This document shows positions 505 to 15,941 of a stretch of 64,000 bases of DNA, one piece after another; position 1 is the first letter of the stretch; each line of letters starts with the position of its first letter. The position numbers and the translations under genes are program-made. The DNA comes from Desulfovibrio sp. (GTDB lineage Bacteria > Desulfobacterota > Desulfovibrionia > Desulfovibrionales > Desulfovibrionaceae), in the NCBI GenBank assembly GCA_031284485.1, contig JAISZT010000057.1:1-64000 (forward strand), given 5' to 3'. The notes beneath the pieces are model-generated. The model saw only the letters and a program-made list of their open reading frames with translations, made no database searches and was not told the origin of the DNA.

Positions 505-1719
505 CTAGTGGGCGTCCTTGAAATCCGGATGTTCATAGAGCACCGGCATGTGGTAGACGATAAAGCGGTACGCCGTCACAATCATGGTCACGACAAAGAC
601 GGAGATGCATATCTCCCACAGGCTCGGGAAATATCGCTCCGCCGAGGGCAGAGCGTAATTGAAAGCGATCATGGAAACATTGAAACGGTTGAGCACAATG
701 CCGAGCACCGTATTTGCGGCTGCAAAGCGGCAGATCCGGAGGTTGCGCTGCCGTGACCCCCTGGCATAGAGCAGGGCGGGCATGAGCACAAAGAACAGCA
801 TTTCCACCAGCCACCACAGCCCGTAGCCGGAGAAGACGTAGGGCAGATTGGCCTGCACCAGCATATCGGTGAACTTGAGCATGAAATAGGCGAACAATAT
901 GAACGAGGCCGCCTTGGAGAAGCTGAAGACCACTTCGTCGGCTTCACGCAGATGGGTGTCGTCCATGTAGTGATGAACGCCCTTATGCGCGAACATGCCC
1001 TCAAAAATAACCATCGACGCGCCCGCGGCCATGGAACTTACAAAGAAGAACATGGGCATGAAGGGCGAATACCACAGCGGGTGCAGTTTGCCCGGCGCAA
1101 TGAGATACAGTGAACCCAGGGACGACTGGTGCAGGGTGGAAAGCGTCACGCCGAAGATGGTCAGGATAATGGTGCAGCGGACTACCAGTTTGCGCCAGTT
1201 GAGAAGGAAGGGAAATCTTCCCGCAAGCCATTCCATGGGCGCGACGGAAAATTCCACAAAGAGCACCGTGAGATATGTAGCCACGCACAAACCCACTTCA
1301 AAAAGTACGGATGTGGTGCCGGGAAAGAAGAACATATACGGAAGGCGCAACGGATGGCCAAGATCATACAGAAGGGCGACCACCACGAAGGTGTAGCCCA
1401 GAAAGGCCGTGGTCACGGCCGGGCGCACCGCCGAGTGAAAGTGCTTCATGCCCATAATATAACAGCCGACAGTGGTGAAGTATCCGCCGGCGGCCAGACT
1501 CACGCCGCAGAGCAAATCAAATCCGATCCACATGCCCCAGGGCTGCACGTCGGAGAGATTGGTGACGGAGCCGATGCCCTGGGTAAAGCGGATGACTGTA
1601 ATGACAAGACCGACCGCCAGTATGATCGCCGTGATAAGGTTGCCCCGCCTGCGCAGCGAAAATTCGCCGAGGTTGAACAACTTGTCTTTTGTGGGAATGA
1701 CAATGTTGTGGTGTGCCAT
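505..1719 (-). CDS. nhcC: NrfD/HybB-family integral membrane subunit of the nine-heme cytochrome complex
   Basis: 404 residues with about ten hydrophobic segments, typical of NrfD/PsrC/HybB proteins that exchange electrons with menaquinone in the membrane and can take part in charge translocation. Family-like features include RFTQGIGSVTNL near residue 45 and NPWG/QPWGMW-type motifs before the second helix. The start codon directly follows the stop of the ferredoxin gene, which indicates translational coupling. It should pass electrons between the menaquinone pool and the four-cluster ferredoxin, and on to the nine-heme cytochrome. A clear paralogue, much of it alignable by eye, lies at 8396-9556. 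Confidence 0.85.
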   Translation of the reverse strand: MAHHNIVIPTKDKLFNLGEFSLRRRGNLITAIILAVGLVITVIRFTQGIGSVTNLSDVQPWGMWIGFDLLCGVSLAAGGYFTTVGCYIMGMKHFHSAVRPAVTTAFLGYTFVVVALLYDLGHPLRLPYMFFFPGTTSVLFEVGLCVATYLTVLFVEFSVAPMEWLAGRFPFLLNWRKLVVRCTIILTIFGVTLSTLHQSSLGSLYLIAPGKLHPLWYSPFMPMFFFVSSMAAGASMVIFEGMFAHKGVHHYMDDTHLREADEVVFSFSKAASFILFAYFMLKFTDMLVQANLPYVFSGYGLWWLVEMLFFVLMPALLYARGSRQRNLRICRFAAANTVLGIVLNRFNVSMIAFNYALPSAERYFPSLWEICISVFVVTMIVTAYRFIVYHMPVLYEHPDFKDAH

Positions 1720-2778
1720 TTAATTATGTCCTCCCTTGTCTTGCATGGCCTCTGACATGGCCTCGCGAACCGTGTCGGCCGCGGCCTGTCCATGGGTTTC
1801 AGCAACTTTATGCGCCGCAGAGTTGACGGCATAGGTCATGTCGTTTTTAATTTCCTTGATCGCCGCTTCCTTTTCAGCCTCATGGATGGCGTCACGGCGT
1901 TTGCTTATGGCATAAGCCCCGCCGAACAGCACCGGCCAGAAAGCGACAATCATGGGCACCGCGCCAAGAGCGCCGTAGGTAAGCTCGCCCATGGGCCGGT
2001 TGCCCAGGTGCGTGTCAAGACCAAGGGCCTGCATGGCGCCGTCAGGTTTGGCGGCCGCGCCCGGGGCCGGGGCCAGTATCATCCAGGCCGTGCCTCCGGC
2101 GTCCCATTCTCCATAAATATAGTCCGCGTATTTGCCGGGATTCTTCGCCATGCGGGCGCGGGCCACCTTTATCAGGTCGCTGCGCCTGCCGAAGGTCAGG
2201 GCGTCCATGGGGCAGGCTTCCACGCAGCCGGGGAGCTTGCCCTCCTTGAGGCGCGGTTCGCAAAAGGTGCATTTTTGCACCAGCGGGTCAAAGGCTTCGT
2301 CATACTGGAAGCCGGGCGCATAGAAAGGACAGGCTATCATGCAATAGCGGCAGCCCACGCATTGCGAGCCGTCGTAGGTTACGCTGCCGTCCGGCTGCTT
2401 CTGGAAGCATTTGGCAAAGCAGGCGGAGGCGCAGGCCGGATCATTACAGTGAAAACACTGCAATTTCCGGAAAACCTGCCGTCCGTTGACTTCGTATTTG
2501 TTGACCACTGTCCACTCGTACGCCGAGGTGCGGCGACGCGTGTCGCAGACGGTGAGATCCTCAAAGGGTTTTTTGGGTTGGGGAAGGCTGTTGACCTTGT
2601 TACAGGCCTTTTCGCACTCACGGCAGCCAATGCAGCGGGTGGTGTCGTGCAACACCCCGAAACTGCCGTCGTAGTAGGGAAAGGTGTGCGTGCCTCCGGC
2701 GGCTTTGACCTCAGCTGTGCTCAATGCTGAAACCACGCCCGCGCTGCCCAGAATAGTCAGGAATTTTCTGCGGTTCAT
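1720..2778 (-). CDS. nhcB: Tat-exported HybA-like ferredoxin with four [4Fe-4S] clusters and a C-terminal anchor
   Basis: 352 residues. The start at 2778 was chosen because GGAGAACGTAT precedes it and because it puts the Tat motif MNRRKFL at the N-terminus. The four cysteine groups are CIGCRECEKAC, CFHCNDPACASAC, CVGCRYCMIAC and CTFC...GCVEACP, a HybA/DmsB-like arrangement. A hydrophobic segment around residues 280-300 (GAVPMIVAFWPVLFGGAYAI) is a membrane anchor, followed by a charged tail. It should sit on the periplasmic face and wire the nine-heme cytochrome to the NrfD-like subunit. It is flanked in one operon by both partners. Confidence 0.88.
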   Translation of the reverse strand: MNRRKFLTILGSAGVVSALSTAEVKAAGGTHTFPYYDGSFGVLHDTTRCIGCRECEKACNKVNSLPQPKKPFEDLTVCDTRRRTSAYEWTVVNKYEVNGRQVFRKLQCFHCNDPACASACFAKCFQKQPDGSVTYDGSQCVGCRYCMIACPFYAPGFQYDEAFDPLVQKCTFCEPRLKEGKLPGCVEACPMDALTFGRRSDLIKVARARMAKNPGKYADYIYGEWDAGGTAWMILAPAPGAAAKPDGAMQALGLDTHLGNRPMGELTYGALGAVPMIVAFWPVLFGGAYAISKRRDAIHEAEKEAAIKEIKNDMTYAVNSAAHKVAETHGQAAADTVREAMSEAMQDKGGHN

Positions 2779-2792
2779 ATACGTTCTCCGTA

Positions 2793-3830
2793 CTAGTTGA
2801 CGCTCTGCGGGGTTATGGACCCTTGCCCGGAGGACTGGGAGTCCATTGTCAGGCTCTGCGTGGCGCGAGGCTTGTGGCATGTGGCGCATGACGTGTCAAC
2901 GGGTCTGGCGACCTGCATGCCTTTATGGCAGTTCATGCACATCAGGTGATACGCGGCCTTGAGATTGGTGCGGCCAGGCTGCTCCGGATCAATGGTCGCC
3001 TTGTGACAACTGCCGCATTTGGGCGGAGTGGCCGACAACGGAGAGATGTGATGACAGGTGGCGCAGAGCGTTTCCGGATTGGCGTGAAAGGCCTGGGCCA
3101 GCTTGTTGTCCGCAAGTTTTTCCATGACGGATTCAACATGGCGGCGGTGCGCGTACATATTCGACCCAAATTTGTCGGAAAGTCCGTCGATGTACACCTT
3201 GTAGGGGCCGTCCTCGGGCGTGAGGTAGCGCGCAGGTTCTCTGGCTTTAATGGTTGCGCTGGCCAAGGCCAGTTTTTCCACATCGGGCAACGTGCCGGCA
3301 CTGCCCTGTTGCATCTGCTCCGTAGTCATGGAAGGCGTCATGTTGTGACATGGCGCGCAACTGGAGGCGCTGCGCGCGGGCTTGACGATGCTGTGGCATC
3401 CGGCGCATTCCGGCTTGCTTTTTGTTTGCTGCGCATGGCAGCTGATACAGCTTTGCGGTGTCGCAGTCCCTTCCGGACGCTGTGCAATGTGGCGTTTGTG
3501 CATCGCCGCGGTAAGGGTGACAAAGCCGCCTTCGTCCTTGCCTTCCATGGTGTGACAGGATGTACAGGCCACGGTAATTCCATTGTGATGACAGGACATG
3601 CAGTTGCCGGCCTTTTTCACGTGGACGAAATGATTGAAAGCGGTTGGTTGCATACCAACGCCCGCCGGATTTGGCTTTTCACTGACCGGAAAGATGGCCC
3701 TGTAACGCGAGTCTTTGTAGTCCTCAATCTCCGAGACCTGGGCCTCTCCGGCTGCCACGTCGATTGTCGGACACGCCGCGCTGATCAGGGCAACCGCCGC
3801 CAGCAGAAGCAGTGTTTTGCCGTTCCTCAT
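2793..3830 (-). CDS. nhcA: Nine-heme cytochrome c (class III type)
   Basis: 345 residues with nine CXXCH motifs: CMSCH, CTSCH, CISCH, CAGCH, CAPCH, CATCH, CGSCH, CMNCH and CATCH. They fall into two groups separated by a stretch of about 100 residues, as expected for two cytochrome c3-like domains plus one extra heme (9HcA of Desulfovibrio desulfuricans is the type protein). The N-terminus MRNGKTLLLLAAVALISAAC is an export signal. The cysteine at 20 could also allow a lipoprotein form, though the lipobox is weak. AAGGACAAACAC precedes the chosen ATG; an in-frame ATG lies 6 codons upstream. It likely takes electrons from periplasmic hydrogenase or cytochrome c3. Confidence 0.88.
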   Translation of the reverse strand: MRNGKTLLLLAAVALISAACPTIDVAAGEAQVSEIEDYKDSRYRAIFPVSEKPNPAGVGMQPTAFNHFVHVKKAGNCMSCHHNGITVACTSCHTMEGKDEGGFVTLTAAMHKRHIAQRPEGTATPQSCISCHAQQTKSKPECAGCHSIVKPARSASSCAPCHNMTPSMTTEQMQQGSAGTLPDVEKLALASATIKAREPARYLTPEDGPYKVYIDGLSDKFGSNMYAHRRHVESVMEKLADNKLAQAFHANPETLCATCHHISPLSATPPKCGSCHKATIDPEQPGRTNLKAAYHLMCMNCHKGMQVARPVDTSCATCHKPRATQSLTMDSQSSGQGSITPQSVN

Positions 3831-3942: not shown

Positions 3943-4941
3943 TTATGAGAAAACAGCAAACGCGTCAAGATGGTGCTCGTCTAAAAATGTGTTTTTTGCC
4001 TGAAGTGTTGGCCGGGGCTGGCAGCGCGCTTCAGCCGTTGTTGCTGAAGCGGCAACGGCCAGCGCCGGCAGCACCTTTTCCGGGGCGATCAGCAAGGCCT
4101 CCGGCTGGGCGCGAAACCACGTCAATTGGCGTTTGGCATAGGCGCGGGTGTTTTTCAGCCAGAGATCGCGGCATCCCGCAAGATCTATGCGCCCATGCAG
4201 GCATGCCAGAATTTCAGCCGCGCCTATGCCGCTCCAGCCGGGCGCCGCCGGATCATTGCACCGGTCAAAAGCCTTTTTCGCTTCTTCAAGCGCCCCGTTG
4301 GCGAGCATCTGATCGATGCGGCGGGCCAGACGCGGCTTGAGCCGGTTCAGATCGGTGTTGATGACAAACAGCGGCCCTTTGCAACGGGGCGGAGTCATGG
4401 CGTTTTTATGCCACCAACTGAACGGGCGGCCTGTGGCCTCCACCACCTCCAGAGCGCGCAGGATGCGCTGGCGGTCATTCGAGTGGATACGCGCGGCATA
4501 GTCCGGGTCCGCCGCGGCAAGCTCCCGGTGCAGGGCGGGCGCGTCCGATTTTTCCAGACGGGCGGCCAGACGCGCGCTGATTACCGGGTCAATCGGCGGT
4601 ATATTTGTAATGCCGCGCAGGAGCGCTTGAAAATACAGGCCGGTGCCGCCTGTCAGAATGGGGATTTTCCCCGACCTGACCACTTCATCGGCTTTTGCCG
4701 CAGCCATCTCCACCCAGCGGCCGGCGCTGATTTTTTTGTCTGTGGACAAGAATCCGTACAGATGATGCGGCGCTCCGGCGCGTTCTTCCGGAGTCGGCTG
4801 GGCGGTGACAAGGGGAAAATCGGCGTAAACCTGGCGGGAGTCGGCGTTGATTATCTCACCGTTCAGGGCCTTTGCCAGAGTCAGGGCCGCGGCGGTCTTG
4901 CCCGAGCCTGTCGGCCCCGCCAGGCAGACAACCGGGATCAT
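3943..4941 (-). CDS. miaA: tRNA dimethylallyltransferase
   Basis: 332 residues. It transfers a dimethylallyl group to A37 of tRNAs reading UNN codons. The P-loop GPTGSGKT is at residues 9-16, followed by the family motifs DSRQVYADFPLVTAQP and GGTGLYFQALLRG, and by a C-terminal WFRAQPEA segment. The start at 4941 was chosen because its ATG overlaps the coaD stop (ATGA), indicating a coaD-miaA operon; a longer form from 4977 would overlap coaD heavily. The length is normal for the family. Confidence 0.95.
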   Translation of the reverse strand: MIPVVCLAGPTGSGKTAAALTLAKALNGEIINADSRQVYADFPLVTAQPTPEERAGAPHHLYGFLSTDKKISAGRWVEMAAAKADEVVRSGKIPILTGGTGLYFQALLRGITNIPPIDPVISARLAARLEKSDAPALHRELAAADPDYAARIHSNDRQRILRALEVVEATGRPFSWWHKNAMTPPRCKGPLFVINTDLNRLKPRLARRIDQMLANGALEEAKKAFDRCNDPAAPGWSGIGAAEILACLHGRIDLAGCRDLWLKNTRAYAKRQLTWFRAQPEALLIAPEKVLPALAVAASATTAEARCQPRPTLQAKNTFLDEHHLDAFAVFS

Positions 4942-5639: not shown

Positions 5640-7187
5640 ATGAAAAAATATCTGCGCTACCTGGGGCCGGTCTTGATTGCCGCCATTTTTGTGCTGGCCG
5701 TCTATCTGCTCTATCATAAACTCAAGGCTTACAGCATCGCCCAGATTCGGGAGAGCATGCAGCAGATTTCGTACACGCGCATAGCGGCGTCCATGGCCCT
5801 TACGGTCATCAATTACATGATTCTGGTGGGTTATGACTGGCTGGCGCTCAAGGCCATCCGCAAAACCCTGCCCCTGCCGCGCGTCGGTCTGGTTTCCTTT
5901 GTGGGGCAGGCCGTCAGCTACAATTTCGGCGCGCTGCTTGGCGGCACCACAGTGCGCTACCGCTTTTATTCGGCCTGGGGTTTTTCCGTTACCGAGGTTG
6001 TGCGCCTTGTGCTCATGCTGGCCGTAACTTTCTGGGTGGGGGCGCTTGGACTTTGCGGGCTTATCTTCATGGTCGCGCCGCCTGTCATTCCGGAAGAATT
6101 ACTGACAAAAATGCCTGTCGCCGATGTACGCGTCCTGGGGATGATCCTTTTTCTCATTGCCTGTTCGTACCTGATTCTGTGCTTTACCATGCGCCGCCCC
6201 GTGCATATTTTCGGCAAGGAATTCACCTTCCCTCCGCCGCGCATCGCCATAGCCCAGGCCCTTGTGGCCGGAGTGGACATTGTCGCCGCCGCGGCCTGCA
6301 TGTACGTGCTGCTGCCGAGCGGATCCGGCATAAGTTTTATCGAATTCCTGCCGGGCTACCTCATGGCCCAGGTGGCCGTGGTGCTGACGCATATACCCGG
6401 CGGCGTGGGGGTATTTGAGCTTGTCATCCTGCATCTTACGCAGACCACGAGCGAACAGACGGTTTTTGCGGCGGTGCTGATTTTTCGCATTGTCTACTAT
6501 ATTATACCACTGCTCTCGGCTGCCGCGCTGTTGGCGGTTTATGAAGCCAGACAGCAGCGCAATATGCTGCACGAGGCCGGGCGCTGGCTTTCGGCCCTTT
6601 CCCATTCCATAGCGGCCATCGCCGCCTTTGCCGGCGGGATGATACTGCTTGTTTCGGCCACGCTGCCCACATTGCCGCGCAAAATCGCCATGCTGATCCA
6701 GGTGCTGCCCCCGCCGACCATTGCCCTGGGGCATTTTGCCTGCGCGATCTGCGGGGCCGCGCTGCTGTTTGTCTCCTACGGTCTGGAGCGCCGCCAGTCG
6801 CGCGCCTACAAGGCGGCTGTGACTTTGCTGATTTTTGGCATAATCGGTGTACTGCTCAAAGGTTTTTCGTGGGAAGCGGCTCTGATGGTCTGTGTTGTGC
6901 TGCTGGCCGTCTGCCTGACGCGGCGGCGTTTTTACCGCGTTTCCTTTTTCTGGGAAGAGAAAATCCCGGCGAACTGGCTGGCCGCGGCTCTGGGAGCGCT
7001 CGGGCTTGTCGTTTTTCTTGGCTGGGCCATTTATCATCCGGCCTGGGATCGCGCCACAAGCTGGGGTTTTGATCAGCCCCTCAACGCTTCGCGGGTTTTC
7101 AGGGCTTATTGCGGCATAGCGGCAGCGTTGGTGCTGGGCTTTGTCTGGCGTTTCGCCAAACGGCGGATGAACCGCAGGCGCCCATGA
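5640..7187 (+). CDS. Integral membrane protein with MprF/YbhN-type flippase domain
   Basis: 515 residues, almost wholly hydrophobic, with around 13 membrane segments. It resembles the lysylphosphatidylglycerol synthase transmembrane (UPF0104/YbhN) family: SYNFGALLGGTTVRYRFY near residue 100 and HIPGGVGVFELVIL near residue 250 are typical. MprF proteins continue into a cytoplasmic aminoacyl-transferase domain, which is missing here, so only lipid flipping or a related envelope role is likely, not lysinylation. The gene diverges from coaD, and no strong ribosome binding site precedes the ATG. The substrate is unknown. Confidence 0.75.
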   Translation: MKKYLRYLGPVLIAAIFVLAVYLLYHKLKAYSIAQIRESMQQISYTRIAASMALTVINYMILVGYDWLALKAIRKTLPLPRVGLVSFVGQAVSYNFGALLGGTTVRYRFYSAWGFSVTEVVRLVLMLAVTFWVGALGLCGLIFMVAPPVIPEELLTKMPVADVRVLGMILFLIACSYLILCFTMRRPVHIFGKEFTFPPPRIAIAQALVAGVDIVAAAACMYVLLPSGSGISFIEFLPGYLMAQVAVVLTHIPGGVGVFELVILHLTQTTSEQTVFAAVLIFRIVYYIIPLLSAAALLAVYEARQQRNMLHEAGRWLSALSHSIAAIAAFAGGMILLVSATLPTLPRKIAMLIQVLPPPTIALGHFACAICGAALLFVSYGLERRQSRAYKAAVTLLIFGIIGVLLKGFSWEAALMVCVVLLAVCLTRRRFYRVSFFWEEKIPANWLAAALGALGLVVFLGWAIYHPAWDRATSWGFDQPLNASRVFRAYCGIAAALVLGFVWRFAKRRMNRRRP

Positions 7188-7242
7188 GGCGCGGAGGTCC
7201 ACACGCTGCCCGCAGCCGTGCGCAGGCAGCGAGGGGCCGCCG

Positions 7243-7932
7243 CTAATTGCAGGCTTTTTCGTCAATGGCGCAGCATTTCAGTTTTTCAGGTTCAAAAATG
7301 TCCAGAGCGTTGCGTCTATACGTGCCGATGATGCCTTTATCCTGCAGGCGATTGAGTGTCTTGTGCAGGGAGCTTCGGTGTATGCCGAGGAACGCGGCCA
7401 GTTCCTGCTGAGTCAACCGGGGATTGACAACGCCGCGTACCCTGTTGAAAAGATACATGCAGTAGAGAATCCGGCACACATTGCCAAAAGAACTCATGGT
7501 GCGCAGCGTGCAGAGTTGGAGGTACATGCACAGGGATTTTTTACTCAACGATTCAAAAAGGTTGAGAAACAGATCAGGGCTCTCCGCGATGAATTTCTTG
7601 GTGAATATTTTTTTGGGGAAGAAGACGGCTCTGGTGGATTCCATAGCGCTGAAAATGGCGCTGCCGGCGCTGTACTGAAACATGGGAACCTCACTGAACA
7701 GGGTGGCGCTGCCCATGTACATCATTATCCTCTCCTGTCCGTTGTAAGATATGTTGGACAGGCGGACACGTCCTTTTCTGATGAAGTATAAGCCTTCATC
7801 GCCCGGTCTTGTCTTGGGGGGAATTATGCTGCGGGCCGCGAACGTGACCGGCGAACCGAGCGACAGCACCTTTTCCCAGGGCTTGTTGAGATCTGTCAGA
7901 ATGACGGGGAAGAAATAATCATTGTAATTCAT
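7243..7932 (-). CDS. Crp/Fnr-family transcriptional regulator
   Basis: 229 residues. The N-terminal half is a cyclic-nucleotide-type beta barrel (GLYFIRKGRVRLSNIS near residue 47), followed by a dimerisation helix and a C-terminal winged helix-turn-helix (LTQQELAAFLGIHRSSLHKT near residue 175). No Fnr-like cysteine cluster is present at the N-terminus, so it is not an oxygen-sensing Fnr of the classical kind. It lies between the two NrfD-type redox modules, which suggests, but does not show, control of respiratory genes. A TTGCAA-N6-TTGCAA site just upstream may be an autoregulatory operator. Confidence 0.85.
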   Translation of the reverse strand: MNYNDYFFPVILTDLNKPWEKVLSLGSPVTFAARSIIPPKTRPGDEGLYFIRKGRVRLSNISYNGQERIMMYMGSATLFSEVPMFQYSAGSAIFSAMESTRAVFFPKKIFTKKFIAESPDLFLNLFESLSKKSLCMYLQLCTLRTMSSFGNVCRILYCMYLFNRVRGVVNPRLTQQELAAFLGIHRSSLHKTLNRLQDKGIIGTYRRNALDIFEPEKLKCCAIDEKACN

Positions 7933-7947
7933 AAAAACCTCAAAAAT

Positions 7948-7967
7948 ATTGCAAGCTATATTGCAAT
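7948..7967. promoter_or_regulatory. Palindromic site before the Crp/Fnr-family gene
   Basis: ATTGCAA and TTGCAAT are separated by six bases, beginning 15 bases upstream of the regulator start codon. The arms are perfect inverted copies. The position suits autorepression, but the sequence differs from the usual TGTGA-N6-TCACA of Crp-type sites. Confidence 0.35.
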
Positions 7968-7987
7968 GTTACGCGTTGTGAGTGATT

Positions 7988-8262
7988 CTAAATTTTGCTA
8001 TGCGATGTCATCCAGGCATTTGCCCCGGTGCGCTTTCCAAAAATCAGCACAAAGGGCGTCGGCAGCAGAAAGAGGATGGCGCAGGTTGTAAAGATGGCCG
8101 GGATGGCGTCGTTTCCCGGACCGGCCGTGCCGCCGAAGACGGCCAGAATAATGGGAATGACACATTGGAAGCCTGATACGGACAATCTGGCGAACGGATG
8201 TACCCGGTTGAGTTAAAAAGCGCGGTGGGTTCGCGGAAATCCAGCAGGCTGTTTTTCTCCAA
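7988..8262 (-). pseudogene. Remnant of an MFS transporter C-terminus
   Basis: In two minus-strand frames this stretch encodes pieces resembling the end of a sugar-porter-like MFS protein. EPTALFNSTGY in the first frame matches the usual (E)xxPTxxRxxGY region. After a frame change SGFQCVIPIILAVFGG, AIPAIFTTCAILFLLP and FVLIFGKRTG follow, the last resembling the family's FGxETxG end. About 75 residues remain, with no start codon or upstream helices. It is the main content of the 463-base gap between the Crp/Fnr gene and the next operon; the rest, 8263-8395, shows nothing I can name. Confidence 0.5.
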
Positions 8263-8395
8263 TTATAGTCATTTTAGTTTACAAAAAGGAATATTGCTGT
8301 TGCAAAATCGACATTTATCGGTTTTTCTTTCAGCTACGGCTGCTTTGCGGTTCCGCAAAGGCATGGCTCATCAGGAGGACTTGTGATGATGGCCG

Positions 8396-9556
8396 TCAGC
8401 TTTTGTAATTTTCATGCGTCTTCAATATCGGCATCCTGGAACAGATCCAGCGATACGCGATGACAAGCAGCGTAACAAGAAAAACGGAAATGGCGATTTC
8501 CATCCAGTTGGGGAAATAACGTTCGGAAGAGGGCAGGTTGTAGTTGAACGCGACAAGGCTCACATTGAAACGATTGAGAACCACGCCCATCACCGCAAGT
8601 ATCGCGGCCGCCTGCACCAGGCGCACGCTCCCCCTCTTTACGCCAAGGAGAAACATGAAGGCCGGCAACGCGACGGCTCCCGCGATCTCCAGCAGGAACC
8701 AGGTTCCGTAACCGGTGGAAAGATAGGGCAGGTTGCCGTTCGCAGCCACTTCAGCGAGTCTGAAAACCAGATAGACAAACATGAAGAGGCAAGCCGCTTT
8801 GCCGCAGCCCAAAACCGCTTTGTCAGCCGTTCGCGCATGCTGATCGTCCATATGGGCGCCCAGAAATTTATGGGCCAGACATCCCTCGACGACAACCATG
8901 CTCAGCCCTGCGAACAAACTTGAAACGAGAAAAAACAGCGGCATGAATTTGGAATACCACAAGGGGTGGATCTTGGAAGGGGCTACAAGATACAGAGCGC
9001 CCAGAGAACTTTGATGGATAACGGCGATCACGGCGCCGACCACAGCCAGAGGCGCCGCCCAGTTGACGACTTTGGCCCGTTGTCCGCTTTTGCCGAGCCA
9101 CTCAAAAAGCGCCGGCAGCAGTTCGACAAACAGCACTATCAGATACAGGGCAACGCAGAGTCCGACCAGAAAAAGCACGGAACTCGTGCCCTGGGACCAG
9201 AAAAAGGGGTACACAAGTCTCCACGGCTGTCCTACCTCGTACACCAGGGCGATCACTTCAAAAAAATAGCCGAGGAAGGCCGTTGTCAGGGCGGCCCGCA
9301 CGAATACGTTGAATTGCCTGAATCCGAAAATATAATAGGCGGCGGCGACTGCAAAGCCCCCTGCGGAAACGGCTATGCCGCAAAGGAGATCAAAGGCCAT
9401 CCAGAATCCCCAGGGGTTCTTGTCGTCCAGATTGGTAACGCCGCCGATGCCGGAAGTGAAACGCAGCAGGGTCAAGCCGATCCCCACAAGGAGTATGCAT
9501 AAAATTATACCGTTTTTTATATAATTTTTCTGTCCATTCTTGCATTCGGAGTTCAT
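8396..9556 (-). CDS. NrfD/HybB-family membrane subunit, second module
   Basis: 386 residues, around ten membrane segments, clearly paralogous to the subunit at 505-1719: for example RFTSGIGGVTNLDDKNPWGF against RFTQGIGSVTNLSDVQPWGM, plus the shared LNRFNVS and PSAERYFP/PSSERYFP blocks. It should exchange electrons with menaquinone in the membrane. Its ATG overlaps the stop of the ferredoxin gene by 4 bases. Unlike the first module, no small 48-residue subunit follows it. It is the last gene of an operon with a seven-heme cytochrome and a Tat-exported flavoprotein, so it most likely feeds quinol electrons outward to that reductase. Confidence 0.86.
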   Translation of the reverse strand: MNSECKNGQKNYIKNGIILCILLVGIGLTLLRFTSGIGGVTNLDDKNPWGFWMAFDLLCGIAVSAGGFAVAAAYYIFGFRQFNVFVRAALTTAFLGYFFEVIALVYEVGQPWRLVYPFFWSQGTSSVLFLVGLCVALYLIVLFVELLPALFEWLGKSGQRAKVVNWAAPLAVVGAVIAVIHQSSLGALYLVAPSKIHPLWYSKFMPLFFLVSSLFAGLSMVVVEGCLAHKFLGAHMDDQHARTADKAVLGCGKAACLFMFVYLVFRLAEVAANGNLPYLSTGYGTWFLLEIAGAVALPAFMFLLGVKRGSVRLVQAAAILAVMGVVLNRFNVSLVAFNYNLPSSERYFPNWMEIAISVFLVTLLVIAYRWICSRMPILKTHENYKS

Positions 9557-10458
9557 TGCCCCTCCTCCCCGCTGTTTTTTTCACGCCGTCCGCTGACAAG
9601 ATAAGCCACGCCGAAAAAGACGGACAATACGCCCGCGGCCATGCCCGCGGTTTCAAGGATGCCCGCCGTCGGTTCCGGGACAGGGGTTTTGCCAAGCTCG
9701 GGCTGGTCAAGATCCCTGTGCGGCACCGGGGACAGATAAAGCCAGCTGGTTCCGCCCACCTCATGCTCGCCGTAAATGTGCTCCACATAGAGTCCGGGAT
9801 CGTCGGCCATGCGTTGGCGGGCAATTTGCAGAAGTTCCGTTCGCTTGCCAAAAATCAACGCTTTTTCGGGGCATCTTGAAACACAGCCGGGAAGTTCCCC
9901 GGCGGCTATGCGCGGGGCGCACATTGTACACTTGTAGACCAATGGATTCCAGGCATTGTTGTAGTCATAAGCGGGCACATAGAACGGACAGGCAACCATG
10001 CAGTAACGGCAGCCGACGCAGAGTTCGGGCTTGTACAGCACGGGGCCTTCGGGCGTTTTGTAAAGCGCCTTGACAAAACAGGCGGAAGCGCAGGCCGGGT
10101 CTATACAGTGGTTACATTGAAATTTTCTGTGCACAGGATAGCGCCCTTCTATGGCATATCTGTTGACCACGGTGAAGCGCTGGAAATCTGTTCGACGTTT
10201 TGTTGCAAGCACACCCCTGTCATAGAAAGGCTTTTCCGGGATCTTGTAGTTTTCCGGCTTGGGCAGTATCGCGGAATTGACCGACTGGCAGGCGGCCTCA
10301 CAGCTTCGACAGCCGATGCACAACGCAGAGTCGTGGAGCACGCCGACAGCGTCAGGATTTTCTTTTACAGCGCCTGCGGAGGAAATTCCGGCATTGCCGG
10401 GCGAGATTGCGGCGGCAATGCCCACCGAGGCCAGCGACAGAAATTTTCTTCGGTTCAT
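9553..10458 (-). CDS. Tat-exported HybA-like ferredoxin, second module
   Basis: 301 residues. The Tat motif MNRRKFLSLAS is at the N-terminus and the four iron-sulfur groups are CIGCRSCEAAC, CNHCIDPACASAC, CVGCRYCMVAC and CTMC...GCVSRCP. One hydrophobic C-terminal anchor (around residues 265-288) is followed by RREKNSGEEG. It parallels the protein at 1720-2778 but lacks part of the central insert. Expected to stand between the NrfD-like subunit in the membrane and the seven-heme cytochrome in the periplasm. It begins 30 bases after the cytochrome gene and overlaps the next gene. Confidence 0.87.
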   Translation of the reverse strand: MNRRKFLSLASVGIAAAISPGNAGISSAGAVKENPDAVGVLHDSALCIGCRSCEAACQSVNSAILPKPENYKIPEKPFYDRGVLATKRRTDFQRFTVVNRYAIEGRYPVHRKFQCNHCIDPACASACFVKALYKTPEGPVLYKPELCVGCRYCMVACPFYVPAYDYNNAWNPLVYKCTMCAPRIAAGELPGCVSRCPEKALIFGKRTELLQIARQRMADDPGLYVEHIYGEHEVGGTSWLYLSPVPHRDLDQPELGKTPVPEPTAGILETAGMAAGVLSVFFGVAYLVSGRREKNSGEEGQ

Positions 10459-10488
10459 AGGATACTCCGTACCCGTTAGCGCCAGGGG

Positions 10489-11190
10489 CTATTGCTTCCC
10501 ACCGGGGATGGGATTCATCTCAAACTTGTGGCAATCCAGACAATAGGTGATGGAAGCCTCATGCGCCTTATGACAAAGCCTGCAGTTGACTACACCAAGG
10601 TGGGACGCGTGGGGATTTCTTGAGATATGATCCTTTCCCGGCGTTTTTTCAGCAAGCTGTTCGTAGCTGCCGTGGCACTTGAAGCAAACGGCGTTCTCCG
10701 GTTTGTCGTCGAGAACCGGCAGTTTGTCTCCATGGCACGAAGAACAGGCGACATCCTTTTTGGCATGGATTGTTGCCAGAAAGGGCGACTTTGCCCATTC
10801 AGCGGTTATTTCCGGCAGGAACTTCATTGTCTGCTCGTCAGGCACGCCGATGGATTCCCGACCGGGAAGAGAGAAGGACTTCCCGACATCAATGATATGA
10901 CAATAGGAACATTCCAGTTTCTTCTCCGAAAAATGTTTTTTGTGAACCTTGGCGGAAAAAACATGCGTGTCTCTGCGTGTCTCTGACGACGGAAGGTGAC
11001 ATTGCATACAGGATGAGATATTGTCTTCACCCTCCACAATCATGTGTTTTTCAGGCAAGACGGTACGCATGTCCGTATGGCACTCTGTCGCGCATTTACC
11101 CGGCGGTTCTTGCGCCGCGACAATTCCGGACATGAGTGGAATGACAGACGCCGCCAGAAACAGAAAGCAGTGCGGAATAATACGCTTCAT
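10489..11190 (-). CDS. Seven-heme periplasmic cytochrome c with one CX3CH site
   Basis: 233 residues with signal peptide MKRIIPHCFLFLAASVIP. Six canonical motifs are CMQCH, CSYCH, CSSCH, CFKCH, CRLCH and CLDCH, and a first, non-canonical site CATECH has three residues between the cysteines. It is unrelated in layout to the nine-heme cytochrome. Placement between a Tat flavoprotein and the ferredoxin/NrfD pair makes it the likely electron donor to the flavoprotein, as the cytochrome domain is in fused flavocytochromes c3 such as Fcc3. The 5' part is separated from the flavoprotein gene by a hairpin. Whether the CX3CH site carries heme cannot be told from sequence. Confidence 0.82.
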   Translation of the reverse strand: MKRIIPHCFLFLAASVIPLMSGIVAAQEPPGKCATECHTDMRTVLPEKHMIVEGEDNISSCMQCHLPSSETRRDTHVFSAKVHKKHFSEKKLECSYCHIIDVGKSFSLPGRESIGVPDEQTMKFLPEITAEWAKSPFLATIHAKKDVACSSCHGDKLPVLDDKPENAVCFKCHGSYEQLAEKTPGKDHISRNPHASHLGVVNCRLCHKAHEASITYCLDCHKFEMNPIPGGKQ

Positions 11191-11258
11191 GCCGGAACCT
11201 CTGCAGCGGGCTGAGATTCAAAACAAACTGTATTGAAAAACCAGGCAATGCCCTGCAA

Positions 11259-11287
11259 CAGATGGCAGAAAATTTTTCTGCCATCTG
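11259..11287. terminator. Intercistronic hairpin between flavoprotein and cytochrome genes
   Basis: Stem CAGATGGCAGAAA (11259-11271) pairs with 11275-11287 through 13 bp with a 3-base loop. On the plus strand it is followed by TTTTTA, but in the direction of the operon (minus) by TTGCAGG, so for the operon it is more likely a partial terminator or an mRNA-stabilising structure that lowers expression of the downstream genes. Confidence 0.45.
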
Positions 11288-11301
11288 TTTTTATTCAGGG
11301 G

Positions 11302-12843
11302 TTACGCTTTTTCCGTTGCCGCATTTCTCCCGGCGACGCGGCCAAAGACAATCGCATCTGAGGTGGCGTTGGATCCCAGACGGTTTGAACCGTGTATTCC
11401 GCCGGTAATTTCGCCGGCAGCATACAGTTTGGGTATAATCTCGCCGAAGACGTCAATAACCTGTGCTTTCGCGTTGATTCTGAGGCCACCCATGGTGTGG
11501 TGTATGGAAGGCCACTGCGGGATGCCGTAGAAGGGGCCTTTTTCCAGAGGGAGCATCTGGGGGGTGATGGGCTTGTTGAACTCAGGATCCTTCTTGTTCT
11601 TGAGCATCTCGTTATTCTTTTTAACGGTCTCTTCCAGCGCGGCCTTGTCTATGCCCAACTGGTCAGCTATACCGCCAATGGTATCGGACACGACAATGCG
11701 CTTCTTGTCCACAAAGCCCTGCAGGCGGCCCTTGTCCGTGCCGATTTTTTCAAGCATTTCCAGACTGAAAATGGAATAGGTGGCCTTTACGTCCGGGCCG
11801 AGATTAAGCTGGGCAAAAGAAACTTCATCGCGGCGTGCAAGTTCGCTGATAAAGCGTTTGCCTGCCTTGGTCACATACAGTACGCCGGCTCCGGGCCCAT
11901 TGAAGGGATAAAGGGCGGGTTCGTCAAGTATGCCGGATCCCGGTTCAGCATAGGGATACAACTGGATGAAGTTCATCTGCAAGGTATCCGCGCCGATGTT
12001 CTGGGAAAAACGGATTATTTCGCCTGTAGCGCCTTTCTGGTTGGTGGAAACAAATTTCTCCGTCAGGAAGGGGTAATGCTCGGTGCGCATTTTCAAATCG
12101 CGCGAAAAACCGCCCGCTGCCAGCACCAGTGCGCGGGTTGCCCTGATATTGCTGACTTTGCGCCCCTGTTTTACTTCAACGCCAAGCGCGGGGCCGCCGT
12201 CAGCGGCACGCCATATCCAGGTGACTTCACTTTCAAGGCGCAGGGGCTGCATGCCGTTTTTTTCGGCAATTTTGCGCAAAGGCTCCACATAGCCGCGTCC
12301 AACGTATTCTTCACAAATATGCGTGCGATAGGCCGAGTGCCCACCGGCGCGCGCCAGAACTTCGCGGACTTTACATCCGCCCTCGTTGATCATCCAGTTC
12401 AAAGCGTCAGGCGAACCCTCAACAAAAACTTTTACCAGTTCGGGAATGGGGAAAAAGTCGCCGCCCTTGACGGTGTCCTCCACATGCAAAGCAACGCTGT
12501 CATCGCCATAGCCCAGTTTTTGACGCAGGTGCATCTGGTCATCCCAAGCTGCCATCAGACCGCCATTGATGATGGAGTTGCCGCCGTATATCGGCATTTT
12601 TTCAAGGATGACTGTTTTTGCCCCGGCCTTTGCGGCTTCAGCGGCAGCGGACAGTCCGGCAAAGCCTGAACCGATAACAACAACATCAAAAGTTTCATCC
12701 CAGGTTGTCGGGAGCGCGCGTAATTTGGCTCCTGCCTTTGCTTCTTTTGCCGCACCAAGATCCATTGCCATAGAGGCGCCAACGACTGCGGCACTGGCGA
12801 TGGCGCCCTTCAGGAAAGAACGACGAGGTAATTTCTTGTCCAT
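11302..12843 (-). CDS. Tat-exported flavoprotein reductase of the fumarate/urocanate reductase family
   Basis: 513 residues. The start at 12843 follows AAAGGAGTCTGTT and gives the Tat signal RRSFLKGAIASAAVVGA. The FAD-binding motif VVIGSGFAGLSAAAEAA is near residue 55. Conserved reductase elements are GKRFISELARRDE (the Arg proton donor of Fcc3, Arg402), HHTMGG (His504) and GSNRLGSNATSD (Arg544). The fumarate-binding His365 of Fcc3 is replaced by Tyr in FIQLYP, as reported for urocanate reductase UrdA, but about five extra residues separate it from the catalytic Arg. It is therefore unlikely to use fumarate. The substrate may be an unsaturated or aromatic acid. It probably receives electrons from the seven-heme cytochrome. 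Confidence 0.8.
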   Translation of the reverse strand: MDKKLPRRSFLKGAIASAAVVGASMAMDLGAAKEAKAGAKLRALPTTWDETFDVVVIGSGFAGLSAAAEAAKAGAKTVILEKMPIYGGNSIINGGLMAAWDDQMHLRQKLGYGDDSVALHVEDTVKGGDFFPIPELVKVFVEGSPDALNWMINEGGCKVREVLARAGGHSAYRTHICEEYVGRGYVEPLRKIAEKNGMQPLRLESEVTWIWRAADGGPALGVEVKQGRKVSNIRATRALVLAAGGFSRDLKMRTEHYPFLTEKFVSTNQKGATGEIIRFSQNIGADTLQMNFIQLYPYAEPGSGILDEPALYPFNGPGAGVLYVTKAGKRFISELARRDEVSFAQLNLGPDVKATYSIFSLEMLEKIGTDKGRLQGFVDKKRIVVSDTIGGIADQLGIDKAALEETVKKNNEMLKNKKDPEFNKPITPQMLPLEKGPFYGIPQWPSIHHTMGGLRINAKAQVIDVFGEIIPKLYAAGEITGGIHGSNRLGSNATSDAIVFGRVAGRNAATEKA

Positions 12844-12885
12844 AACAGACTCCTTTGTTGTGGAGCAGACGGTGAGGGGAAATAT

Positions 12886-12904
12886 ACGGCGTTCATAACG
12901 CCGT
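12886..12904. promoter_or_regulatory. Inverted repeat in the leader of the flavoprotein operon
   Basis: ACGGCGTT and AACGCCGT, 8 bp each, flank a 3-base centre just downstream of the predicted start site of the promoter at 12917-12945. It could be an operator or a 5' mRNA hairpin upstream of the ribosome binding site. Confidence 0.45.
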
Positions 12905-12916
12905 TCGTTGATAGGT

Positions 12917-12945
12917 ATTATCATTAAAATCTTGACGAGTGTCAA
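12917..12945 (-). promoter_or_regulatory. Sigma-70-type promoter for the flavoprotein operon
   Basis: On the minus strand TTGACA (12945-12940), a 17-base spacer and GATAAT (12922-12917) form a near-consensus promoter, about 75 bases upstream of the flavoprotein start. The -35 is embedded in a small hairpin CTTGAC-ACTC-GTCAAG that may also end the acyl-CoA dehydrogenase transcript. Confidence 0.6.
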
Positions 12946-12990
12946 GACATTTTTTTATGGCAGCGACAGCTGTCATGTTGACAGCAACAC

Positions 12991-14127
12991 TCAGCGTAAC
13001 ACGTGCGAAGCAATGACGGCGCGCTGTATCTGGTTGGTGCCTTCAAAAATCTGGAAAATCTTCGCGTCACGCAGAAGTTTTTCCACCGGCATATCACGGC
13101 TGTATCCGTACCCGCCCATGATCTGAATGGCGTCAAGGGCATTTTGCACCGCTATATCGGAGGAATAGCATTTGGCAATGGCCCCTTCCATACCGTAGGG
13201 AAGGCCGTTTTGCACCAGCGTCAGCGCGTGTATGGCCATCTGCCGGGCGGTTTCCGTCCGTATGGCCATATCCGCCAGCATGAACTGTATGGCTTGCAGG
13301 GCGGAAACAGGATTGCCGAACTGCTTTCTGTTTTTGGCGTATTGCGTGGCCTCCTCCAGAGCGCGCCGCGCTATGCCCACGGCAAAGGGGGCGATGGCAC
13401 AGCGGGCCAGATCCAGCGTCCTCATGGCCAGTTTGAATCCTCCGCCTTCCCTGCCGACCAGGTTGTCTTTTGGAATACGCACATCATTAAAAACCACATC
13501 GGTTGTATTGCTCAGGCGTATGCCCATCTTGTTTTCTTCCTTGCCCACACTCAGGCCTTTGGCGCCTTTTTCCACAATAAAACAACTGAGGCCGCGCAGT
13601 TTTTTATCGGGGTCCGTGGAGGCGAACACCGTATAGAGATCCGACACTCCGCCGTTGGTAATGAAGCATTTGCTGCCGTTCAGCACATAGTCCGAGCCTT
13701 GCTTCACCGCTGTGGTCGCCACCGCGCTGGTATCAGAACCGGCATTGGGTTCGGTCAGGGCGAATGCGGCGAATTTTCCCTCCATGATGGCCGAGGCATA
13801 CAACTCGTTCTGCTCCGGCGTGCCGCCGAGCACAATGGGCTTATAGGCCAGAAAGGAGGCCGCCATGCTTACGCCGAAGCCGGAGTCAATGCGTCCTATT
13901 TCTTCGTACATGGCCGCAATGGTGATGTAATCCAGGCCGGGGCCGCCGAAACTTTCGGACAGTTCCACTGTGCTGAGGCCGAGGTCGGCGGCTCTTTTGT
14001 ATAGATCCACAGGAAATTCGCCTGACCTGTCAAACTCCGCGACGCGGGGTTTGAGTTCTTTTTCCGCGAATTCCCTTGCGGTTTGCACAAAAAGTTTTCC
14101 TTCATCATTCAGCATGTACCCACTCAT
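12991..14127 (-). CDS. Acyl-CoA dehydrogenase
   Basis: 378 residues, normal length for the short/medium-chain family. It oxidises an acyl-CoA at the alpha-beta bond, or runs in reverse with an electron-transferring partner. FAALTEPNAGSDTS and FITNGG are FAD/substrate motifs, and FEGTNQIQR near the C-terminus carries the usual catalytic glutamate. The start at 14127 was chosen for the strong GTAAGGAGGAACTGT before it. No etfAB genes are adjacent, which is unusual because these enzymes need an electron acceptor. It lies upstream of the exported reductase operon but that operon has its own promoter, so a joint role is only a possibility. Confidence 0.9.
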   Translation of the reverse strand: MSGYMLNDEGKLFVQTAREFAEKELKPRVAEFDRSGEFPVDLYKRAADLGLSTVELSESFGGPGLDYITIAAMYEEIGRIDSGFGVSMAASFLAYKPIVLGGTPEQNELYASAIMEGKFAAFALTEPNAGSDTSAVATTAVKQGSDYVLNGSKCFITNGGVSDLYTVFASTDPDKKLRGLSCFIVEKGAKGLSVGKEENKMGIRLSNTTDVVFNDVRIPKDNLVGREGGGFKLAMRTLDLARCAIAPFAVGIARRALEEATQYAKNRKQFGNPVSALQAIQFMLADMAIRTETARQMAIHALTLVQNGLPYGMEGAIAKCYSSDIAVQNALDAIQIMGGYGYSRDMPVEKLLRDAKIFQIFEGTNQIQRAVIASHVLR

Positions 14128-14324
14128 ACAGTTCCTCCTTACATTGCTAAAATTATCAAATAATAAACCCGCCGACATCCGGATGCGAGCTTTTTTCCCT
14201 TGCCCGAACTGTATATTCCCGCATGCGTCCGCTATTGGCGACGTCAAAAAAGATGTTTAAAATCTCCAGTGGTTGTGCCAGAAAATTTGGACGAAACAAT
14301 TATAACATTTTTTTTGGCCAAGCA

Positions 14325-15941
14325 CTAGCGCAGAAAATGTCCATCCCCCCCTTCAATCACAGTTGAAGAGCCTGCAGGGATATAGTTGTACGCGCCTATC
14401 CGTCTCTTGCCGTCGTCGATGGCGACAGCCAGGCGCAGGGCATCCGCGCAGGCGTTGCCGTATTCTTTTTCAAGCATCTGGCTCATACCGGCGGCTGCCT
14501 CTTTTAGCGCTTTTTCGGCGTCGGCGGCGCGCTTCAGTTCGATGACGACGGTTTTATCCTTATACCGGGCGACGATATCCATACGCCCGAGGTTGTTATG
14601 CACTTCCGCCTGCGCCCGGATGCCGGCGCCAAGGAGGAAGGTCTGCAGCGTCGCCCGGTAAAACGACTCATTGGAATTTACGCGATGATCATCATAGGAA
14701 ACGGCAGCATAGACACGGTTGAAAACCTTCACCAAGGCTTCTGCATCCTGTTTTGCAACGGCTGCTTGGACGTTTTTAAACAATTCGTCAGCTACGTAAT
14801 CTTCATGGATCATGTTTTGAATGCAATACGCCGACATTGCGGACAGGACTTCAAAATTCGGATAATCAAGGCAATACCCGTCGTCCCTCTTCCGCAGAGT
14901 CAGATAGCCCGCCTGATACAGGAAACCGTGCGGGGGCGTGGACTCGATCTCGCCCGGGGACGTGAGGAACGAACGCTGCACAGGAAGATTGCGAAACTGA
15001 TCGACGGTCAGGTTTTTTTCCCTGAGAAAATTGCGAATAAACGACGTCGATCCGGATTCCATCCAGTAATTGTCAAAAAAACCTCTCTGCAGCAGGCTCA
15101 GCGTGGAAAAAGGGTTGTAGACCAGCGTTTCGCCGTCAAAAGAAAAACCGTTGTAATACTCCTCAATTTTCCCCGGAAGTTCCGCGACAGCGATGCCGGT
15201 CTTTTTCGACAGACCTTCCAGATAGGGCTGGAAACAGTTTCCGAATTCTTCATGCGTGTAACCCATCATTGCGGCAAATTCGTGATCAAGCGAGATGTCA
15301 TAGAGATTGTTCAGCGAGGAAAAAACGCCCATCTTGCTGAACTTGCTCACGCCTGTGATGAAGGCAAAGTGAACGTAATCGGACGCGACCTTTATCTGCG
15401 AGTAAAAATCGCGCATAAACTCACGCACTCCCTCAAGCAACCGGGGATTGGAAAGCGCCTTGAAAATAGGCGCGTCGTATTCGTCAATGAGTATCACGGG
15501 TTCAACACCCATCTTCTGGGCCACGTCTTCCAGTAGAACACCAAAAGATTCCGCTGAATTAGACGAACAAGGCGTTAACTCAAAGGATGAGGCAATTTTA
15601 TGCAATCGCCGTGAAAGTGCTTCCTGAAATTCATCAAAACCCCGAAATAAAGGCATGGCACTCATGTCGAGTTTGATAACCGGTCTCGGCTGGAATTCAG
15701 CCGAGTTCATGCACTCCTCGACAGCGAGTCCCCGGAAAAGTTCTTTTTTGCCGCTGTAGAACGCCTCAAGCGCGGAGACAGTCAGGCTCTTGCCGAAGCG
15801 TCTGGGTCGCGCGCAGAAAACAACACTGCCCATTTTTCGCAATTCGGGAAGATAACGCGTCTTGTCAACGTACAGGTCACCGTTTTGGCGGATTATTTTA
15901 AAGCTTTGTGCGCCTAGCGGCAATTGCTGAAGGGCAGACAT
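14325..15941 (-). CDS. AAA-ATPase-like protein with C-terminal PD-(D/E)XK nuclease-like domain
   Basis: 538 residues. The N-terminus matches the AAA-ATPase-like family that is often multicopy in gut and oral bacteria: YVDKTRYLPEL, then ARPRRFGKSLTVSALEAFY (Walker A-like, GKS), and VILIDEYDAPI (Walker B). The C-terminus has GRMDIVARYKDKTVVIELK, the D...ExK pattern of the PDDEXK_9 domain. GGAGGCATCGAC precedes the chosen ATG. The function is not known for any member; a role with mobile DNA has been suggested. It is a single gene, adjacent to a nucleotidyltransferase remnant, in what looks like a locally rearranged region. Confidence 0.75.
   Translation of the reverse strand: MSALQQLPLGAQSFKIIRQNGDLYVDKTRYLPELRKMGSVVFCARPRRFGKSLTVSALEAFYSGKKELFRGLAVEECMNSAEFQPRPVIKLDMSAMPLFRGFDEFQEALSRRLHKIASSFELTPCSSNSAESFGVLLEDVAQKMGVEPVILIDEYDAPIFKALSNPRLLEGVREFMRDFYSQIKVASDYVHFAFITGVSKFSKMGVFSSLNNLYDISLDHEFAAMMGYTHEEFGNCFQPYLEGLSKKTGIAVAELPGKIEEYYNGFSFDGETLVYNPFSTLSLLQRGFFDNYWMESGSTSFIRNFLREKNLTVDQFRNLPVQRSFLTSPGEIESTPPHGFLYQAGYLTLRKRDDGYCLDYPNFEVLSAMSAYCIQNMIHEDYVADELFKNVQAAVAKQDAEALVKVFNRVYAAVSYDDHRVNSNESFYRATLQTFLLGAGIRAQAEVHNNLGRMDIVARYKDKTVVIELKRAADAEKALKEAAAGMSQMLEKEYGNACADALRLAVAIDDGKRRIGAYNYIPAGSSTVIEGGDGHFLR

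Follow-up and report, generated by a model that had tools for sequence, protein, structure and literature searches.

In a 64,000-nucleotide stretch of a Desulfovibrio sp. genome (the window: positions 1 to 64,000 of contig JAISZT010000057.1, assembly GCA_031284485.1; 2.54 Mb in 138 contigs, here G000), four minus-strand genes running from 12843 to 8396 form a cassette that we read, with moderate confidence, as a menaquinol-fed periplasmic 2-enoate reductase. It would be organized like NrfABCD with a flavoprotein in the place of NrfA; we infer the direction of electron flow, the use of quinone and the class of substrate. The original prediction, made from the DNA letters, had joined a flavoprotein exported by the twin-arginine translocation (Tat) pathway, a seven-heme cytochrome, a four-cluster ferredoxin and an NrfD subunit in one gene unit, and all four genes were indeed found there on one strand. 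In transcription order they are as follows:

11302..12843, minus strand: Flav, Tat-exported flavoprotein of 513 residues binding flavin adenine dinucleotide (FAD), predicted Mrd-type 2-enoate reductase (TIGR01813, PDB matches, AlphaFold/Foldseek, tree)
10489..11190, minus strand: Cyt, exported seven-heme cytochrome c (Cytochrom_c3_2, match to 1qo8, heme sites)
9553..10458, minus strand: FeS, 4x[4Fe-4S] protein close to the HmcB/NhcB type (NF045715 HmcB score, 16 Cys)
8396..9556, minus strand: NrfD, quinone-reactive membrane subunit close to the HmcC/NhcC type (NF045714 HmcC score, residue tables, tree)

Flav and Cyt are separated by 111 bp and Cyt and FeS by 30 bp, and FeS and NrfD overlap by 4 bp. 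The layout is not due to chance, because the order Flav-Cyt-FeS-NrfD recurs in 7/7 loci of one flavoprotein subclade. A scan of genome contigs gave 24 loci, of which L015-L020 share this subclade with the window and 18 lie outside it; contig edges cut Flav in L018, L019 and L020 and NrfD in L016. Flanking genes are unshared save for one 53-residue match between the upstream regions of L015 and L017 (upstream flanks compared for the window, L015 and L017; downstream flanks for these and L011). In the flavoprotein tree, from which the duplicates L019 and L023 were left out, the subclade (L019 being represented by the same contig, L011) has an SH-like approximate likelihood ratio test (SH-aLRT) support of 100; its sister group is a subclade of the Syntrophus type (SH-aLRT 97 by a quick method). 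In this tree, Flav clusters with homologues of 59-65% identity. Four of the six other cassette loci are labelled Desulfovibrio, and L016 has two tandem copies of Flav. Among the matches listed for 121 relatives, this type of Flav occurs only in the source genome and one congener, two further matches being homologues of 37-38% identity.

Flavoprotein reductases of the TIGR01813-type family are known to receive electrons from fused hemes, from domains carrying flavin mononucleotide (FMN) or from separate cytochromes. Flav scores 388.5 bits against TIGR01813 flavocytochrome c (cut-off 285.45), also matches FAD_binding_2 and carries the Tat motif RRSFLK; a family profile search of Flav returned no match to FMN-binding and heme families. 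In Cyt (233 residues), a CX3CH site at residue 33 is followed by six CXXCH sites at 61, 94, 149, 169, 203 and 217, which makes seven heme sites in all. Residues 134-229 of Cyt form an Fcc3/Ifc3-type tetraheme domain (1qo8, E 1.3e-16), to which the three N-terminal hemes, beginning with the CX3CH site, are additional. Because the C-terminal half of Cyt is such a domain, Flav and Cyt together amount to a split Fcc3 with three more hemes.

Such a split pair has been described. Mrd/Mcc of Geobacter sulfurreducens AM-1 combines a Tat flavoprotein without hemes (526 residues) with a cytochrome of 231 residues, exported by the Sec pathway and having up to seven heme sites (PMC4427408). Flav and Cyt look like this type, judged by sequence against the published description of the AM-1 enzymes: Flav is a heme- and FMN-free TIGR01813 Tat flavoprotein, a co-oriented seven-site cytochrome gene follows 111 bp downstream, and a spacing of 42 residues in the active site is shared, as are the catalytic residues and a terminator-like hairpin between the two genes. 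The differences from AM-1 lie in the substrate position, Trp in Mrd and Tyr in Flav, and in the flanks, which for mrd/mcc are described as pseudogenes, a transposase gene and a GTP cyclohydrolase gene, with no FeS/NrfD genes (PMC4427408). The same source gives Desulfatibacillum homologues of 511 residues with the motif RRSVIK, 65% identical to Mrd, and a four-heme cytochrome of 109 residues. Locus L052, from a 6.5 Mb genome, agrees with this homologue in length, Tat motif and cytochrome (510 residues, RRSVIK; downstream of it, a cytochrome with four hemes and, counted from an inner ATG, 109 residues); its flavoprotein, one of the homologues clustering with Flav in the tree, is 63% identical to Flav over aligned columns. 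It had been proposed that flavoproteins of this family are fed by CymA/NapC-type or fused cytochromes, whose place a quinone module takes here; the replacement of CymA/NapC stands, but a Tat flavoprotein beside a separate seven-heme cytochrome was already known from Mrd/Mcc. Among the cassette loci, the window included, only L017 (7932-8633) departs from CX3CH at the first heme site of Cyt, reading CX4CH there, and in the seven-heme Syntrophus-type homologues all seven sites are CXXCH.

The active site points away from fumarate. The closest solved structures are UrdA and Fcc3 (34-37% identity), which are also, in this order, the top PDB folds found by Foldseek with the AlphaFold model of Flav (mean predicted local distance difference test score, pLDDT, 81.6). 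The catalytic residues Arg338, His448 and Arg488 are kept and are invariant in 26 aligned rows. The fumarate-binding His365 and Thr377 of Fcc3 are absent from Flav, their columns holding Tyr (Tyr296) and Glu. In UrdA, Asp388 is called critical and is placed, with Glu177, near the imidazole (PMC7921117); both columns are Leu in Flav, so that Asp388 is replaced neither by Asn nor by Gln. From the Tyr and the two Leu residues, the pocket seems able to accommodate an enoate that has one carboxylate and a non-polar side group; this, rather than fumarate, is probably the class of substrate. The claim that the substrate is neither fumarate nor clearly urocanate is supported in that the protein has neither the His/Thr pair of Fcc3 nor the Asp388 of UrdA. 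The same prediction had singled out the Tyr and an insertion of about five residues before the catalytic Arg. Both are real, the hinge-to-Arg distance being 42 residues in Flav (Tyr296-Arg338), 37 in Fcc3 and 38 in UrdA, but neither is special to this locus, because UrdA also has Tyr (Tyr373) and the insertion reproduces the spacing of AM-1 Mrd (W311-R353, also 42; PMC4427408). As locus-specific traits we rejected them, since the Mrd-type clade shares both. In an alignment limited to matches of at least 170 bits and 400 residues, Tyr occupies the His365 column in each of the 36 rows (34 distinct sequences) that are 51% or more identical to Flav, and a Ligilactobacillus homologue (44% identity) has Phe.

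The other two genes supply a membrane module. FeS has 16 Cys in four groups of four, a Tat-like N-terminus (MNRRKFLS) and hydrophobic stretches at residues 7-25 and 264-291, the latter a C-terminal helix; NrfD has many hydrophobic stretches and scores 76.9 bits against PF03916. HmcB (NF045715) and HmcC (NF045714) are the best families for the two, at 390.3 and 513.5 bits, just below the curated cut-offs of 420 and 550. The module had been called HybA/HybB-like; as a quinone module in the CymA/NapC place it survives, whereas HybA and HybB were rejected as nearest relatives, since they score far lower (222 against a cut-off of 263, and 250 against 450 bits). FeS and NrfD thus look like a divergent Hmc/Nhc-type pair. 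NrfD is 47-54% identical to Nhc/Hmc NrfDs and groups with Hmc/NhcC in the tree (97/95), nearest to the NrfD of L018 (94/95) and to NhcC of the genus (82/91), and a topology holding Hmc/Nhc together apart from the cassette NrfD was not rejected (approximately unbiased test, p-AU 0.128). The tree used 15/29 Hmc/Nhc and 4/12 QrcD rows; it replaced a first tree, which left out the duplicates L059 and L060 as well as L079 and the truncated L016 NrfD and had an uninformative distant outgroup. A solved-structure search with NrfD gave 0 matches at E up to 1, and its predicted structure (pLDDT 55.1, seven rows) served for a rough helix count only. NrfD homologues (E up to 1e-40) occur in 55/61 genomes, the source genome included. 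PF03916 has only two matches in the latter, the cassette NrfD and a copy in an ordinary nine-heme (Nhc) operon about 4.6 kb from the cassette:

505..1719, minus strand: NhcC/HmcC paralogue of the cassette NrfD (51% identity)
1720..2889, minus strand: NhcB/HmcB paralogue of the cassette FeS
2793..3830, minus strand: nine-heme cytochrome, NhcA-like (9 CXXCH in the open frame 2793-3980; the start is a chosen Met ahead of a signal-like segment)

This Nhc NrfD has 20/20 of the residues listed for Desulfovibrio NhcC (PMC8076601) at offset 0. By this list, 8/9 residues of the N-side (cytoplasm-side) proton path are unchanged in 5/5 cassettes, as are 5/6 P-side residues, the sixth being Arg or Lys. 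In QrcD numbering, anchored by 17/17 residues (L100, L108-L110), the essential path residues D70, Y110 and Y150 and the pocket residue S138 are kept as D56, Y97, Y138 and S126. The quinone pocket itself is altered at 2/5 residues, with NhcC D119 replaced by E107 and E141 by leucine L130, both changes being fixed in 5/6 full-length cassette NrfDs; all 29/29 Hmc/Nhc rows have D and E at these positions. E107 and L130 are likewise the counterparts of QrcD D120 and E142, yet 2/12 QrcD rows have E at 120. Twelve positions invariant in the 29 Hmc/Nhc rows are fixed differently in five cassettes, and 10/12 fall within residues 49-188, which by our own delimitation correspond roughly to the first bundle of helices (binomial 0.001 for this enrichment, post hoc).

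In the reading that we favour, menaquinol would be oxidized at NrfD, and its electrons would reach, by way of the four FeS clusters, the three additional hemes at the N-terminus of Cyt, from where they would travel through the Fcc3-like tetraheme domain to the FAD of Flav. Hydride would then be transferred from FAD to an alpha,beta-unsaturated carboxylate held by Arg488 and His448, with Arg338 as the proton donor. SirCD, whose native partner is the sulfite reductase SirA and which is not known to be encoded alongside a flavoprotein, is a precedent for an electron route from quinol through FeS/NrfD to a flavocytochrome. In Shewanella oneidensis, this pair of a 4Fe-4S protein and an NrfD/PsrC-type quinol dehydrogenase can replace CymA for fumarate (PMC11434368); it is thus able to feed a flavocytochrome route, as proposed for the cassette pair, whereas the latter is close to the Hmc/Nhc type and shares one operon with its reductase. 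Feeding by quinol is favoured because the four genes travel together, the two NapC/NrfH-type proteins of the genome seem, judged by their neighbour genes, to lie in nap and nrf clusters, SirCD offers a precedent, and the changes in NrfD concentrate around the quinone pocket.

It had also been suggested that this respiration may be coupled to charge movement. From the residue tables, in which the proton path is kept, the sign of such coupling is probably the opposite of a gain. In Qrc, protons for quinone reduction have been shown to be taken from the cytoplasm, one per electron, and the reverse direction (hydrogen evolution by Hyd-2, polysulfide reduction) is argued to be driven by the proton-motive force (pmf); in modules of the Qrc, HybB and Hmc type, oxidation of quinol should move protons inward and electrons to the periplasm, at the expense of pmf (PMC6303296, PMC13059093). 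With the cytoplasm-facing path kept, menaquinol oxidation through NrfD would release protons inward and so spend pmf; this weaker inference, drawn by analogy, would fail if the altered quinone pocket changes the coupling.

Several points weigh against the menaquinol-fed reductase. The potential of menaquinone is about -74 mV, and the driving force is roughly 70-100 mV; because about one charge would move per electron, full coupling would be costly or uphill at normal pmf. Enoate couples lie near 0 mV, that of urocanate at ~0 mV (PMC10882135), and the closest relatives of FeS/NrfD, namely Nhc, Hmc and Qrc, are thought to reduce quinone (PMC6303296, PMC8076601). The pocket changes are all missing from L018, which has the sixth full-length NrfD of the cassette type. 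An Hmc-type pair stands beside the Mrd-type gene in none of the 18 other loci, which include Syntrophus, Telmatospirillum, Acidobacteria and Ligilactobacillus (L031 and L037 are too short at this end for a judgement), and hence the core works without FeS/NrfD elsewhere. A hairpin, described below, stands between Flav and the other three genes. Finally, AM-1 Mrd was compared by its published description only, and because it has Trp where Flav has Tyr (PMC4427408), methacrylate is not assured as a substrate.

The energetic difficulty might be circumvented if the pocket loosens the coupling, if pmf and an excess of substrate permit the reaction, or if electrons come from cytochrome c3. A bolder version of the menaquinol-fed reading is offered as a tentative conjecture, with the balance against it: a new NrfD-family complex with a flavin 2-enoate reductase as its catalytic part, in which pmf would drive menaquinol electrons outward in a reverse Qrc loop through re-placed carboxylates (E to L130, D to E107, V to E100), so that gut Desulfovibrio could respire an unsaturated acid of too low a potential for simple menaquinol feeding.

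Feeding by c3 can also be taken as an explanation in its own right, one that we consider rather doubtful. The periplasmic c3 pool would deliver electrons from H2 or formate to Cyt, which would hand them to Flav or, by way of FeS/NrfD, to menaquinone; the latter branch would generate pmf in the manner of Qrc, and the cassette would partly stand in for a missing Qrc. Indeed, QrcD was found in 0/37 genus genomes (counting the source genome; some are incomplete) against 20/24 other genomes of the order, the proton path of NrfD is nearly intact, the composition of multiheme, large periplasmic, FeS and NrfD subunits mirrors QrcABCD, and Nhc is described as a type I cytochrome c3:quinone oxidoreductase (PMC8076601). 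Yet the genome already has Nhc, the rarity of this Flav type among the matches listed for the 121 genomes speaks against such a role, L130 replaces a Glu kept in 29/29 Hmc/Nhc and 12/12 QrcD rows, and a reductase simply fed by c3 would need no FeS/NrfD.

The hairpin bears on another alternative:

11257-11289, minus strand: hairpin just 3' of the Flav stop codon, with 16-nt perfect arms

The spacer between Flav and Cyt folds with z = -3.62 (0/200 shuffles as stable), and a strong hairpin with a different stem sequence occupies the same place in L015-L018 and L020, as does a terminator-like hairpin between the two genes of the Geobacter mrd/mcc operon (PMC4427408). It lacks a U-run on the operon strand; the opposite strand scans as a terminator. 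Being recurrent and without a U-run, it suggests that more Flav than membrane subunits is made, not that transcription stops, and it is likely an mRNA processing or stabilizing element. Were it a boundary, FeS/NrfD might serve another partner, such as c3 or the neighbouring nine-heme cytochrome, sharing the operon by location only while soluble cytochromes feed Flav/Cyt. The absence of the module from Mrd-type loci elsewhere would fit, as would an NrfD module of the L056 type that has no flavoprotein in the examined stretch, but the 30-bp gap, the FeS-NrfD overlap, the synteny in 7/7 loci with unshared flanks and the missing U-run make this quite improbable.

That Flav is a fumarate or urocanate reductase is still less probable: UrdA and Fcc3 are its closest solved structures and UrdA shares its Tyr, but Flav has no equivalents of His365/Thr377, Leu at the columns of Glu177 and of the critical Asp388, no FMN-binding domain and no fused hemes. 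Most improbable of all, Flav would run in reverse, oxidizing a saturated acid in the periplasm and passing the electrons to menaquinone, a carrier of lower potential than the urocanate couple. Quinone reduction is the role assumed for the nearest relatives of the module (PMC6303296), but the urocanate/imidazole propionate couple has a potential near 0 mV, and UrdA is said to work in one direction only (PMC10882135).

Set beside known systems, the parts of the cassette are known individually, and the fixed four-gene combination appears to be new. In FeS and NrfD it comes closest to NhcABCD/HmcABCDEF, with proton-path residues in common, but it has a flavoprotein, a seven-heme Mcc-type cytochrome instead of the nine- or sixteen-heme subunit, no D-F genes and a pocket changed at two of five residues. 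Compared with Fcc3/Ifc3, the flavin fold and tetraheme domain are homologous and the Arg/His/Arg set is kept, whereas the cassette has two polypeptides, three extra hemes, no fumarate-binding His/Thr and five more residues before the catalytic Arg. UrdA has the same flavin fold and Tyr at the hinge; Flav differs in lacking the FMN domain, Asp388 and Glu177 and in having four more residues before that Arg. QrcABCD is a one-to-one analogue in composition, with D70, Y110, Y150 and S138 kept, but its large subunit is a molybdopterin-family relic, whereas that of the cassette is a flavoprotein with its catalytic residues. NrfABCD likewise joins a periplasmic catalytic subunit, a multiheme mediator, a four-cluster FeS protein and NrfD to carry electrons from quinol to a periplasmic acceptor (PMC8076601); the cassette differs in that its catalytic subunit is a flavoprotein, not a pentaheme cytochrome, and its NrfD is of the ten-helix Hmc/Nhc type. 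Searches of an open-access library turned up no NrfD complex in which a flavoprotein reductase is a subunit, and the lists of NrfD complexes in passages of the reviews PMC8076601 and PMC10564751 contain none whose catalytic subunit is a flavoprotein. If the menaquinol-fed reading is correct, the NrfD family gains a new partner, enoate respiration is tied to the menaquinone pool through a proton-conducting subunit, natural quinone-site variants become available for testing whether Qrc/Hmc-type modules run as quinol oxidases, and termite-gut Desulfovibrio may have an electron acceptor beyond sulfate and fumarate.

Further features concern expression:

12917-12945, minus strand: promoter-like site TTGACA-17-GATAAT before Flav, matching 11/12 consensus positions
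7243..7932, minus strand: Crp/Fnr-family regulator (PF13545 and PF00027), downstream of the cassette

Promoter-like sites in 7100-14400 number 7 against 5.0 (sd 2.2) in shuffled sequence, which is not clearly above expectation, and terminator-like sites 14 against 10.0 (sd 3.1). The palindrome TTGACGAGTGTCAA (12932-12945) overlaps the -35 region; no other site in the window fits TTGACN4GTCAA exactly, and when one mismatch is allowed there are 4 sites against 1.78 expected, a number that 10/100 shuffles reach. In L015, L016 and L017, the 400 bases preceding Flav do not contain TTGACN4GTCAA. The Crp/Fnr gene is a possible candidate regulator of the cassette; as a conserved regulator it was rejected, since its only match elsewhere is a weak one in L021, with none in the other cassette loci. 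A near-palindrome, ATTGCAA-N6-TTGCAAT, at 7945-7970 just upstream of this gene may be an auto-operator. The acyl-CoA dehydrogenase gene at 12991-14247 was dropped as a clue to the substrate, having one weak match only (L032).

Several observations concern the other loci. The contigs of L016 and L018 are labelled Gracilibacteraceae (Bacillota) yet carry the Desulfovibrio-type cassette, through misbinning or transfer. Two sample codes among the six other cassette loci are those of lower termites, Roe453 of Roisinitermes ebogoensis and Nm470 of Neotermes meruensis (PMC11707648). L018:2386-4583 has an ordinary Hmc/Nhc quinone pocket in an otherwise typical cassette, and its FeS C-terminus is HmcB-like by eye; recombination, an intermediate state and a chimeric contig are alternative explanations. 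Cyt is recognizable in 12/18 of the other loci, two of them having fewer than seven heme sites; distant homologues are an FeS/NrfD pair in L028 (26-29% identity) and, in L029, an FeS protein by itself. Another module, of a 6-heme cytochrome, NrfD and FeS, lies beside flavoproteins in L028:6941-12352 and L056:12292-16554 and alone in L142:3820-7562, and is adjoined by a 12-heme cytochrome in L028 and L142. Independent recruitment of NrfD in L028 and L056 was down-weighted as support for quinol feeding, because the module is flavoprotein-free in L142 and a flavoprotein lies within 1.5 kb in 1/30 loci bearing the L056-type NrfD (30 of the 49 matched genomes gave a locus).

Congener G001 has a second flavoprotein paralogue, 51% identical, on a short contig (L012:2427-4013). 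In the Syntrophus-type loci L021, L022, L023, L028 and L029, a second flavoprotein (~35-38% identity, Gly at the His365 position) lies just upstream of the Mrd-type gene. In L053:2378-4291 and L054:5778-7712, which adjoin a seven-heme cytochrome, the Mrd-type open frame reaches about 130 residues further 5' of the Tat motif RRGFLK (residue 136 or 143), as an extension or merely a long open frame.

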